A stretch of DNA of 23,530 nucleotides from a virus: positions 1 to 23,530 of the IMG/VR virus record IMGVR_UViG_3300013093_000286; one strand, written 5' to 3'. Below are positions 17,669 through 21,498 of this stretch, piece by piece; the stretch's first letter is position 1, and every line of letters starts with the position of its first letter. Below the pieces are notes generated by a model. The model saw only the letters and a program-made list of their open reading frames with translations, did not search any database and was not told the DNA's origin. A program made the position numbers and the translations under genes.

Positions 17669-17687
17669 AGATGTTCGTAGAACATCT
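17669..17687 (-). terminator. Hairpin at the 3' end of the gp26-gp51 operon
   Basis: A perfect 8-bp stem, AGATGTTC/GAACATCT with a 3-nt loop, starts at the last base of the small gene's TAA stop. Read on the minus strand it is followed by GTTGTTTCGC, only partly T-rich. It is a reasonable candidate for a weak intrinsic terminator or an mRNA 3'-end stabiliser. Confidence 0.4.
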
Positions 17688-17905
17688 TAAAAGAATGGCA
17701 TTCCTGATTCTTTAGTCATTTCCATGTTTTTCTTAATAATACTTGCAATGAGCTCACGTTCCTGGCTACTCATATACATAGCATCTTCGTAACTAACACC
17801 ACCACGCATATACCACGACATTTTAAGCAGTTCTTCTTTTATGGCTCTTGATTCATTATCCATGCGATCCAGTAATGCTACTGTTTCGTCATAGGTTAAG
17901 TTCAA
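17687..17905 (-). CDS. Small gp51-position protein; possible frameshift extension of gp26
   Basis: The frame encodes 72 residues if started at the TTG at 17905. It is helical and charged: TYDETVALLDRMDNESRAIK, then MSWYMRGGVSYEDAMYMSSQ, then ERELIASIIKKNMEMTKESG and a final MPFF. I recall similar small proteins ending this way after gp26 in marine T4-like phages; in T4 gene 51 follows gene 26. The TTG overlaps the gp26 stop as TTGA, and the only Shine-Dalgarno-like sequence is AGG a few nt away. The frame is -1 relative to gp26, with a slippery heptamer 15-21 nt before the TTG. It may therefore be made as the C-terminal part of a gp26 fusion of about 356 residues. A role in hub or tape-measure assembly is inferred from position. 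Confidence 0.6.
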   Translation of the reverse strand: MNLTYDETVALLDRMDNESRAIKEELLKMSWYMRGGVSYEDAMYMSSQERELIASIIKKNMEMTKESGMPFF

Positions 17906-18756
17906 GAGCCTGTTGCGAAAAAATTTGAATAATCAAATTCGATTGGAACTACAAACTCTTTTGTGCAACTGGTACAATTGGTTCTTTGCGGCACAAGATC
18001 GGCTTCGTTGGATAATTCCACCAGTCGTTTTTGTACGTCCCGTATAATCGAACCTTCTGCGTTGTTGTAAAAATCTTTTATGAACTTGCGGTCAGTTACT
18101 GATTGCCCGTCAACTTCGATAGACTCAGTGCTGTTTGTTGCAGCTTCTATACTTAAATCTAGTAGCCGCTTCATGCTTTCGTTTACTTGTCTAATACGCT
18201 CTTCTTCGGGTATTGCTTGATCACCAATTGCTTTAACTAATCTGGTTTCTTCAAAGTTTACTGTATTTGTTTTATTGATTTCTGTAAATTTTTGTGGTTT
18301 GAGTATTATTTTGAGATTGTGTGTTGTGACCGGATTGGTATAGTCTGGTTTTGGGGTATTGGCCAATAATAATCTTAAATCGAGTGCAAAGTTATTTTCT
18401 GCTTGGCAGTGCGGGCAATTGACATCTAGATCCATATCGTGTCCGTAACTGGCAACTCTGATGGCAATCAAAGTGGTATCTACATCAATACTGGGCATGC
18501 TCCAGGGATCAACGATGTTGGGACAACAACTTTTAATGACTTCTACTACACCGGTCCCGCTCATTAATGCATCGGGAGTTCTTAGTGTGATCTCGTCTCT
18601 AGCAGTCATTGGGTATACCGGAATTTCCTCATTTATAGGGAGATCTAGTGACCCTGGTGGCCAATACTTTCCGTTTGATGGCAATTTTAAATAAATTGCA
18701 GGTTGTCTAAAATATTTAGACAGTGGGTTACTTGGTTGTGGTGCAGTATTTTCCAT
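17902..18756 (-). CDS. 26: Baseplate hub assembly protein gp26-like
   Basis: This 284-residue protein (T4 gp26 is 208 aa) belongs to the T4 gp26/baseplate family. Its signature is the N-terminal part: LKLPSNGKYWPPG (24-36), then IPVYPMTARDEITLRTPDAL (45-64), then VVEVIKSCCPNI (70-81) and LIAIRVASYGHDMDLDVNCP. Two Cys pairs, CPHC (114-117) and CTSC (261-264), could form a zinc ribbon at the two ends of the C-terminal region. gp26 is needed for hub assembly in T4, and is probably an assembly factor. It is divergently transcribed from the tape-measure-like gene through a mirrored promoter. ATG at 18756; its first 10 nt (ATGGAAAATA) are identical to those of the tape-measure gene. Its stop is embedded in TTGA with the following gene. 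Confidence 0.85.
   Translation of the reverse strand: MENTAPQPSNPLSKYFRQPAIYLKLPSNGKYWPPGSLDLPINEEIPVYPMTARDEITLRTPDALMSGTGVVEVIKSCCPNIVDPWSMPSIDVDTTLIAIRVASYGHDMDLDVNCPHCQAENNFALDLRLLLANTPKPDYTNPVTTHNLKIILKPQKFTEINKTNTVNFEETRLVKAIGDQAIPEEERIRQVNESMKRLLDLSIEAATNSTESIEVDGQSVTDRKFIKDFYNNAEGSIIRDVQKRLVELSNEADLVPQRTNCTSCTKEFVVPIEFDYSNFFATGS
17920..17926 (-). promoter_or_regulatory. Candidate -1 ribosomal frameshift site A-AAT-TTT
   Basis: Read on the minus strand in the gp26 frame (TCA AAT TTT TTC), A-AAT-TTT is a full X-XXY-YYZ slippery heptamer with another TT following. The -1 frame is open from just after a TGA at 17935-17933 through the whole downstream small gene. A slip here would give ...SNF-FRNRLLNLTYDET..., fusing gp26 to the small protein. 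The window in which a slip could work is only about 30 nt and contains this heptamer. Confidence 0.5.
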
Positions 18757-18810: not shown

Positions 18811-21498
18811 ATGGAAAATATAGATTATAAAACAATGGCAACTGAGATTGCGAAAGCAATCAAAGGTGAGTCCCGCGGCATGGGCTACGATCCTGAAAAA
18901 ATAAAGGATTTTGAAGAAAGCGCCGAAGATTTTACAAACAGTATTAAGAAATCTAATCCTGGGCTTAAAATGTTCAGGAACATGCTCACTGGCACCGGCG
19001 GTAGCTTTGTAGACATCACAGACCACGTCAAGTCATTGAATCGTGCACTTGAAAAAGAAGAAGAACTTATTAAGCAAACTCAGTTTGACAAAACAAAACA
19101 ATCTGAGATGAATGCTGCTATTGACAATAGAGATAGACTACTAAAGCAAAAAGGTCAAGCAGTACAAGCAGCACTATTTACAAACACTGCAATCTTGGCA
19201 CAAAAGGTTGGTGGTGTAATATATAGCACTGAAATGGATTTTGCTAAAACAGCAGCCGACTTCCAAAAAGAATTACATAGAAGCACAGACGGTACAAAAC
19301 TATACGCAGAGTTACAAATAAAAACTATACAAAAGGCTGCTGAAGCAGCAGACAAAATAGGAGAAGTGGCGACAGAGGTTGGTGAAATGGTCTCAGCCGT
19401 TGGTCTTGTGGTTAAACGATTTAAATACCTATACTTTATTATTGGCGGTATAATGACCTTGCTTGGTGGGGGCACCAAGCTACTAAAAGACGGCACCGAA
19501 TTGGCAGTAAAAGGACTTGAAGATTTAAATGGTCAAGTAGAAGGTTTAAGAATTGGGTTTAAAGAAATAAATTCTGCAGGCATTACCCTAGCCGGCGGAA
19601 TGGATCAGCTTAACCGCAATGCAATAGAATTTGGATTAATGCCTGAACGATTTGCCAAGGGTCTAGAAGGTGCCAAAGACGACATTAAAAATCTTGGCAT
19701 GAGCACCAGCAACGCAACACAAAAAATTGCCAGTCTGGGTCATGCTCTAGACCAGGGCGGAGTCACTGCTTCGTTGTATAAACTAGGATACAGTTTTGAA
19801 GATCAAATTGGTGTGCTCACTGGTGCAATGGCACAAATGCAAATAGCTGGAACGTTACGTTCTGCGTCTGATAAACAGATCGCTGATCAAACTCTTAACT
19901 ATGGCAAAAGTTTAAAAATTATTGAACAGATAACTGGTAAGAATGCCAAAGAACAATTGGCTAGAGCAAAGACTGCCGCTGCTGAAGCAGCAATTTTTGG
20001 CCAACTAAATCCGCAACAACGCAAAGCATTCATGAATGCGATGGCAACAGTTCCTGAGGAAATGAAAGATATTGTTGTTAAAGGTTTTGCGGCAAAGCTA
20101 CATACCGGCAGCGTATTCTTCACAGAAGCCGCAGATGCAATATATGCACAAACCAATCCAGCAATTTTGGGATTAGTGGAAGGGATCGGACGAGTGGCAA
20201 TGTCGGGTGTAGATGATTTAAAGCAAACATCTAGAGACGTTGGATCAATGATGGAGACTGTTTACAAAGGCAATGAACGTGCAAGCCAGCAGTACGGGGA
20301 TATGGCGTTTGCAGGGGCTGTTGGGCATCAGGCAGTGGTAAATTCTTGGTATCAGAAGACATCAAAGATGAATGAATTGGCCATGACTCAGGAAGAAGGA
20401 CGGGCGAAAGAAATTGCAGTGGCAGTTGAAGCAACAACACATAATTTGTCTAAATTAGATAATGCTGTATTAGCATCTGAAACGGCAATGAAAAATTCGG
20501 CAATTGCTACTGCTGCTTCTGCGGATACGTTAGCATCGCATATAATCAATACAATGAACACAACTGCTACCCCGGTTGCGTCGTTGAAAGATGCAGCCCT
20601 AGCATCAAGTAGTGCACTAATGCAGTTTGCAGCACGACTAGATTTAATAAGTCCGGAAAAAGCACAAACCGGCAACTGGTGGGATGATTGGGGTAAAAAT
20701 ACGGCCATAGCGGCGGCAGGTGGTGCGATGTTTGCAGGTGGCACTGCGCTAAGTGGAACTGGCATAGGGGCAGTGATTGGAACGCCTTTAGCATATAGTG
20801 GGCTTGGATTGATGGCGTACGGTGTCGGAAAAGGCACAGAAAGAACCCTTAGTACAAATGTATTTGGTAAACAAGGTGCTGGCGGTGCAACTCAAACTAC
20901 TGGCGCCGCAGGTTCTAAAATTGCATTGAACTTTAGCCATACCAGACCCGGCGATACTGGTGACGAAGCGCATTGGGCACAAATGCCAGGTGGCACTAAA
21001 GAAAAATTCATGAATTTGTTGGCCGAGGCCGGTGTAACAAATGCAACTATTCTAAGTTCGTATCGCAGTGCACAAGAACAAGCTGAATTAAGTACGTCGC
21101 ATCCCAAAGCCGGACCAGGGCTAAGTGCACACAATCAAGGAAACGGTATTGACGTTGACCCTGGAACTTATCAGATTTTAAGAACAAGACCAGACTTGGC
21201 AGCCAAATATAAAGTCAAGTTCTTAGAAACCGATCCCAACCATCTTGAGTTTTACAAAAACGGTGGATACATTCCCGGCGGCAAGCGCGGTATCGTGGGC
21301 GACGGCGGTATGGAAATGGTTGAAGGCCCGGCGCATGTTACCAGTGTAGACAATTCCATGGCAGTGTTCAAGAAGATGGCCGAGAACATAGAAAAACTGG
21401 TGTTGATAACCAAAAATGACACACGACTGGATGATATACTGACCGAACTTGAATCACAGTCAAGAAGCAATCAAAAGATATTGACAGCTGTCAGCTAA
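18811..21498 (+). CDS. Tail tape-measure-like protein with C-terminal M15-type peptidase domain
   Basis: This 895-residue protein is probably the tail length ruler (role of T4 gp29, 590 aa). The N-terminal 200 residues are helical and charged. Hydrophobic segments lie at about 204-225 (LYFIIGGIMTLLGGG) and about 631-673 (Ala/Gly-rich). The long middle is alpha-helical and Ala/Lys/Gln/Glu-rich. Residues about 720-815 look like a D-Ala-D-Ala carboxypeptidase/M15 domain: ILSSYRSAQEQAEL, then SAHNQGNGIDVD with H774 and D781, and DPNHLEF with H811, fitting the SxHxxGxGxD...H zinc pattern. It ends with GGYIPGGKRGIVGDGGMEMV EGPAHVTS (shown in two parts), typical of tape-measure C-termini. Adjacency to gp26/gp51-like assembly factors and the portal supports the call. 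ATG at 18811 with GGAT at 9-nt spacing. Confidence 0.72.
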   Translation: MENIDYKTMATEIAKAIKGESRGMGYDPEKIKDFEESAEDFTNSIKKSNPGLKMFRNMLTGTGGSFVDITDHVKSLNRALEKEEELIKQTQFDKTKQSEMNAAIDNRDRLLKQKGQAVQAALFTNTAILAQKVGGVIYSTEMDFAKTAADFQKELHRSTDGTKLYAELQIKTIQKAAEAADKIGEVATEVGEMVSAVGLVVKRFKYLYFIIGGIMTLLGGGTKLLKDGTELAVKGLEDLNGQVEGLRIGFKEINSAGITLAGGMDQLNRNAIEFGLMPERFAKGLEGAKDDIKNLGMSTSNATQKIASLGHALDQGGVTASLYKLGYSFEDQIGVLTGAMAQMQIAGTLRSASDKQIADQTLNYGKSLKIIEQITGKNAKEQLARAKTAAAEAAIFGQLNPQQRKAFMNAMATVPEEMKDIVVKGFAAKLHTGSVFFTEAADAIYAQTNPAILGLVEGIGRVAMSGVDDLKQTSRDVGSMMETVYKGNERASQQYGDMAFAGAVGHQAVVNSWYQKTSKMNELAMTQEEGRAKEIAVAVEATTHNLSKLDNAVLASETAMKNSAIATAASADTLASHIINTMNTTATPVASLKDAALASSSALMQFAARLDLISPEKAQTGNWWDDWGKNTAIAAAGGAMFAGGTALSGTGIGAVIGTPLAYSGLGLMAYGVGKGTERTLSTNVFGKQGAGGATQTTGAAGSKIALNFSHTRPGDTGDEAHWAQMPGGTKEKFMNLLAEAGVTNATILSSYRSAQEQAELSTSHPKAGPGLSAHNQGNGIDVDPGTYQILRTRPDLAAKYKVKFLETDPNHLEFYKNGGYIPGGKRGIVGDGGMEMVEGPAHVTSVDNSMAVFKKMAENIEKLVLITKNDTRLDDILTELESQSRSNQKILTAVS

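Follow-up and report, generated by a model that had tools for sequence, protein, structure and literature searches.

The gp26-family gene of the virus record studied here very probably encodes a tail assembly chaperone that is made in two lengths by a programmed -1 frameshift and that would coat the tape measure protein. The record is a 23.5-kb stretch of DNA (23,530 nucleotides, referred to here in its entirety as the window), and our reading of it comes from sequence, with the window compared to its relatives. A preliminary description of this DNA had proposed at its core such a frameshift, giving rise to a short and an extended chaperone. The comparison supports that proposal, as the second frame lies in the -1 phase, the slip site is invariant, the second frame has no conserved start codon, and the RNA stem downstream of the site shows compensatory changes. 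The features of the locus are given in Table 1.

Table 1. Features of the chaperone locus in the window, with the basis of each assignment.
Feature	Position	Strand	Basis
Short chaperone (TAC-N or "G-like"), gp26 homologue, 284 aa, with zinc-ribbon Cys pairs	17902..18756	-	PF12322 and AlphaFold
Divergent gene adjoining gp26, probably for the tape measure protein (895 aa)	18811..21498	+	Virion proteins encoded at the corresponding position in CBB, phAPEC6 and PA5oct
-1 frame, opening after stop TGA 17935-17933 and ending at stop 17689-17687	17687..17932	-	Conserved -1 frame in relatives
Slippery heptamer T_TTT_TTC (codons NNT TTT TTC would re-pair one base back)	17917..17923	-	Comparison of relatives
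A_AAT_TTT heptamer chosen in the preliminary description, overlapping T_TTT_TTC	17920..17926	-	First A not conserved
Spacer GCAACA, 6 nt, from heptamer to stem	17911..17916	-	Sequence
Stem 5' arm GGCTCTTGA, holding the frame-0 stop TGA	17902..17910	-	Synonymous shuffles and covariation
Stem 3' arm TCAAGAGCC, loop of 50 nt	17843..17851	-	Synonymous shuffles and covariation

The gp26 homologue and its divergent neighbour

Family matches identified several T4-like genes in the window, including a portal, a SegE-like endonuclease, a late sigma factor, and baseplate genes. The gp26 homologue matched the Pfam family PF12322 (T4_baseplate) with an E value of 3.9e-16 and 59.8 bits, relative to a curated cut-off of 24.5. 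When aligned with small profiles using hhalign, it matched both T4 gp26 (E 1.4e-6) and T4 gp51 (E 3.5e-4). The AlphaFold model of the protein had a pLDDT of 91.5, and its best structural matches were T4-like baseplate hub assembly proteins; a fold search of the PDB with the same model returned no resembling solved structure.

The preliminary description had placed a tape-measure-like gene next door to gp26. A gene of that kind does adjoin it, but the two are divergent; in lambda, by contrast, the tape measure gene lies downstream in the same operon. We consider that the 895-aa product of this neighbour is probably the tape measure protein. Searches of the 895-aa protein against family and tape-measure profiles gave no match at threshold; its residues 732-814 were observed to have a weak match to a VanY-type peptidase (E 0.0042, below the curated cut-off). 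As a rule of thumb, a tape measure protein accounts for ~0.15 nm of tail per residue. The equivalent neighbour in phage CBB has 722 aa and its length is consistent with a tape measure, since the ~108 nm predicted at ~0.15 nm per residue is near that of the 123-nm tail less the baseplate.

The virion protein lists of three relatives indicated that it is the neighbour which is found in the particle. In the CBB virion proteome, the divergent neighbour (CBB_251) was represented by 29 peptides, and CBB_250 (gp26) and 249 were not listed. For phAPEC6, in which gene correspondence was inferred from gene order and size, gp231c, beside the portal, was listed and none of gp232-237 was. In the PA5oct record, gp335 (the neighbour) is marked ESI-MS/MS and gp336 (gp26) is unmarked. 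Each single absence from such a list is weak evidence, and the wording of the RaK2 paper fits gp26 having been either seen or unseen in the virion. Because the neighbour, and not gp26, is in the lists of CBB, phAPEC6 and PA5oct, we favour a tail assembly chaperone resembling lambda G/GT over a virion part as the role of gp26. It is unlikely, in our estimation, that the frameshift is real and gp26 is nevertheless a structural protein of the baseplate hub, with the fusion a minor structural variant of it. That possibility is suggested by the family name in databases (baseplate hub), by the GenBank product name of CBB gp250 ("structural protein"), and by older T4 genetics in which gp26 was assigned to the hub (PMC3004832). 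However, besides the three virion lists, that same source classes both gp26 and gp51 among the hub assembly chaperones, and the cyanophage gene order of gp26, small frame and large protein is the order of lambda G, T and H.

The slip site and the -1 frame

The 3' codons of the gp26 homologue are GAT TAT TCA AAT TTT TTC GCA ACA GGC TCT TGA, with the frame-0 stop TGA at 17904-17902 on the minus strand. Two overlapping heptamers in this sequence would yield an identical fusion peptide, T_TTT_TTC at 17923-17917, which lies 12 nt before the gp26 stop, and A_AAT_TTT, which the preliminary description took as the operative one. The positions given there were all verified, with A_AAT_TTT in the gp26 frame at 17926-17920, 15 nt before the stop, and the -1 frame open across it back to the nearest upstream -1 stop at 17935-17933.

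Relatives were gathered as 30 loci by gp26 protein search and 80 by an internal motif remote from the junction, and 98 distinct gp26 genes, five named phages and the RaK2, GAP32, PA5oct and Atu_ph07 types among them, were compared and grouped into 69 clusters. T_TTT_TTC was carried by all 98 and was in frame in 97; the 98th (L027) has a premature gp26 stop far upstream of the junction, and the heptamer is still there. L004, L006, L010 and L013 have G, T or C in place of the first A of A_AAT_TTT, and among the relatives the codon preceding TTT TTC was variously AAT, AGT, CAT, CGT or GCT. As this base varies among the relatives and T_TTT_TTC is invariant, the latter is the conserved signal, three bases further on than the heptamer originally chosen, and A_AAT_TTT was ruled out as the operative site. 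In its other aspects, the alignment of junctions suggested in the preliminary description gave the result anticipated there, as the phase was always -1 in close relatives and a heptamer of the X-XXY-YYZ type was conserved.

Within the window's genes, TTTTTTC occurs in frame as a single copy in 7448 codon positions, at codon 277 of 285 of gp26. All 69 clusters (which share ancestry) have TTT followed by TTC, with an NNT codon ahead of them; elsewhere in the genes of these relatives, Phe is encoded by TTT in 71% of cases and NNY codons end in T in 53-60%. The frame-0 stop was found at 3-18 nt past the heptamer across the 97 in-frame relatives, with the heptamer and the -1 frame unmoved. A Shine-Dalgarno-like stimulator was sought in the 20 nt upstream of the site and none was seen, except for GGAG in 4 of the 69 clusters.

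The small -1 open frame is of 81 aa, and slippage would add 76 of these residues (RNRLL...GMPFF) as the TAC-C or "T-like" domain. With slippage inside AAATTTTTTC, the fusion would read ...DYSNFFRNRLLNLTYDE... and have 356 aa. The preliminary description had predicted a fusion of about 356 residues spanning SNFFRNRLL, and the translation (...DYSNFFRNRLL...) agrees in both respects. The variability of the -1 frame in the relatives by codon position was 0.28/0.17/0.48, which is a coding signature. An AlphaFold model of the extension was helical (pLDDT 89.6). A viral fold search with the extension returned nothing below E 0.001, and its weak matches were to a Moogle tape measure chaperone and a gp51 of Acinetobacter phage ZZ1. 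The extension also aligned weakly by hhalign with the C-terminus of T4 gp51 (31 columns, E 0.0016, probability 16%). Used by itself as the query of a protein search, the small frame retrieved three close contigs and no others.

Could the small frame be an ordinary overlapping gene, in which re-initiation at the gp26 stop, or coupling of translation there, makes use of a TTG start? Stop-start overlaps are common in phages, and many relatives, like the window, have a TTG at or near the stop; in the window it is at 17905-17903, overlapping the gp26 stop, and is, as first described, the sole start near the junction (within TTGA), the next in-frame ATG being at 17863-17861. We nonetheless regard this explanation as very unlikely, as many lineages have no start nearby. 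When the upstream region and the first 15 codons of the -1 frame were searched for ATG, GTG or TTG, none was present in 22 of 69 clusters, and PA5oct has no start codon anywhere in the frame. A search for ATG or Shine-Dalgarno starts of the small gene, which the preliminary description had named as counterevidence, revealed no start that is conserved in the relatives. A -1-frame stop is located immediately 5' of the heptamer in 8 of 97 sequences, so in these the -1 frame opens exactly at the heptamer. In addition, the residues FFR and RLL are conserved in the -1 frame ahead of any start (in the case of RLL perhaps partly on account of the stem arm), the synonymous sites of the heptamer do not vary, and the stem lies downstream of it.

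Two additional elements were observed beyond the -1 frame. Immediately past its stop is a terminator-like hairpin, AGATGTTC-TAC-GAACATCT (17687-17669, minus strand), which is followed by GTTGTTT. The gap from the SegE-like GIY-YIG gene to the end of the -1 frame also contains a strong match to the Polynucleobacter-1 RNA (Rfam RF01718; 17249-17381, plus strand; 107.6 bits, cut-off 37), a structured RNA that is here phage-borne; a search of phage records for DNA similar to this region found none.

The combination of an in-frame T_TTT_TTC and a -1 frame was found in Atu_ph07, Phosso, RaK2, GAP32, PA5oct, CBB, Vibrio phage 2.275.O, Munch, XbC2, 121Q, SCTP-2, Serratia phage BF, XaC1, and the cyanophages P-SSM4 and S-RIM8. 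In GenBank, the cyanophage frame is a separate gene termed "gp51" or "baseplate hub assembly catalyst" (L136, 2196-2381; L137, 2118-2255); judged by its sequence, this "gp51" is the predicted frameshifted end of gp26. Phages XacN1 and RAS14 have T_TTT_TTT instead. In these two phages (L132 and L138), the frame-0 stop is ~30 nt after T_TTT_TTT and smaller genes replace the large divergent virion gene beside gp26. The pattern was not matched in a distant uncultured 484-kb phage or in Bacillus phage SP-15. The SP-15 locus (L140, 1375-2314) has a distantly gp26-like gene that ends GAA TTT TTT CAC ... TAA. The long frame downstream of this gene is in the +1/-2 phase, immediately before the annotated tape measure gene, and may represent a different kind of frameshift.

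An RNA stem downstream of the slip site

Compared with base-shuffled copies, the 90 nt past the slip site had a much more stable fold (mean z -3.3). The stem was stronger than in synonymous shuffles, which preserve the -1 protein and the codon set, at p<=0.05 in 57 of the 69 clusters. Covariation was assessed in 53 aligned sequences, in which 90.4% of cells were paired and double-change cells numbered 33, compared with 11.4 +/- 2.4 when partners were dealt anew (0/500); as the 53 sequences leave out lineages with a visibly moved 3' arm, these counts describe the main arrangement. Controls in which the stem was slid had fewer paired cells, fewer double changes and a lower covariation score. Several relatives have arms of different sequence with pairing kept, for example L072 (AGCCTCTTAACT/AGTTAAGGGGCT), L091 (AGCTCTTAAC/GTTAAGAGCT), and L103 (CGCCTCTT/AAGAGGCG), whose 3' arm is further downstream. 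Similarly, L106 has GCCACTA/TAGTGGC versus TCCACTA/TAGTGGA in L113, the latter not significant alone.

The stem was clear in the window's clade, Atu_ph07 and Phosso; a local hairpin was seen in PA5oct (p 0.013) and a stem in Vibrio phage 2.275.O (p 0.027). The stem was not clearly present or significant in most other members of the RaK2 group or in the two cyanophages. Because of this, we read the stem as a probable frameshift stimulator for the window's clade only. Tentatively, we suggest that a conserved long-loop stem may set the ratio of short to long chaperone in a large clade, where stem opening, termination and slippage would be physically linked, with the 5' arm holding the stop of the short form and the 3' arm shifting in some lineages with pairing kept. 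Slippage by RNA polymerase at the six-T run, which would create mRNAs with an altered base count and a fusion made without ribosomal slippage, is highly improbable, since such slippage happens at longer homopolymer runs than this one (T6C without exception in the main set, with T7 confined to XacN1 and RAS14), and the stem, whose near-fixed spacing suits a ribosomal stimulator, would be unmade when the polymerase crosses the run.

We hypothesize that, with ribosomal frameshifting at this locus, most ribosomes would terminate at TGA and produce the 284-aa short form. A minority, which is the rate of slippage we envisage, would pause at T_TTT_TTC, held by the stem starting 6 nt downstream, and slip back one base, with the two tRNA-Phe re-pairing from UUU-UUC to UUU-UUU. 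These ribosomes would then read 76 more codons and produce the long form of 356 aa. If the two forms act as G and GT do in lambda, the tape measure protein, which is probably the 895-aa neighbour, would be bound and coated by many copies of the short one, and a few long copies would recruit tail tube subunits via the extra helical domain. Both forms, again as in lambda, would leave before the tail is completed.

T4 genes 26 and 51 and known frameshifting chaperones

Both T4 gp26 (215.6 bits, 8.8e-64) and T4 gp51 (177.5 bits, 3.9e-52) match PF12322, and the match in gp51 stops at residue 201 of 249, so that a C-terminal extension remains. Since both proteins belong to the family and gp51 has the extension, T4 (Straboviridae) appears to encode the short form and the long form separately, with gp51 a stand-alone long form. 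The arrangement differs from that in the window: T4 and five further phages of the T4 type have genes 26 and 51 side by side in divergent orientation, an in-frame heptamer is absent from the end of gene 26 in all six, and in T4 gene 25 follows 26. The preliminary description was correct that T4 has 26 and 51 as separate genes, the T4 record showing two divergent genes. Its designation of the small frame as being in the gp51 position is in keeping with the annotation of cyanophages P-SSM4 and S-RIM8 but not with T4, where gene 51 is encoded on the opposite strand and diverges from 26.

Phage lambda, in which the slip site is G_GGA_AAG, resembles the window in that gpG and gpGT are short and long forms produced by a -1 slip near the 3' end, with an extension of some tens of residues and a tape-measure candidate adjacent. 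The window differs in having T_TTT_TTC, a covarying stem, and a tape-measure candidate that is divergent rather than downstream. The -1 frameshifts of long-tailed phages have been reviewed (PMC5009743). Tail chaperone genes with a poly-T frameshift were described for T4-like phages in 2022 (Vladimirov, Gautam and Davidson, Virology 566:9-15, as cited in PMC10274946 and PMC12846349). According to these citing papers, the TAC-N genes of T4-like phages are known to use poly-T sequences as -1 signals, and some phages of this kind have a short gene and a separate fused long gene. As far as the citing papers portray them, the TAC-N/TAC-NC proteins are, like those of the window, of the same family as T4 gp26/gp51, an assignment that is made here. 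The chaperone locus of Pakpunavirus Adele and the Andersonviridae (PMC12846349) is also similar to that of the window, with a -1 frameshift at a T-rich site and a downstream frame that is routinely annotated as a hypothetical gene; it differs in its GTTTTT motif and in the position of the tape measure gene, which follows the chaperone. In the literature, with Vladimirov et al. represented by the papers citing it, we found no description of a stem of this kind stimulating tail-chaperone frameshifting. A T4-like chaperone with a -1 frameshift is already described, and what is added here is the invariance of T_TTT_TTC over this breadth and a covarying stem that contains the stop codon.

These data have consequences for how the locus is annotated and understood. 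Databases currently present it as a "baseplate hub" gene and a hypothetical or unannotated second half, even in jumbo phages as well studied as RaK2, PA5oct, GAP32 and 121Q; the evidence points to one chaperone locus of two lengths, which is a concrete annotation fix. Our findings also support T4 genes 26 and 51 being a split version of such a locus, and point to the probable tape measure gene in phages with this locus. Finally, the compensatory stem variants represent a natural set in which the tuning of frameshift levels could be tested.
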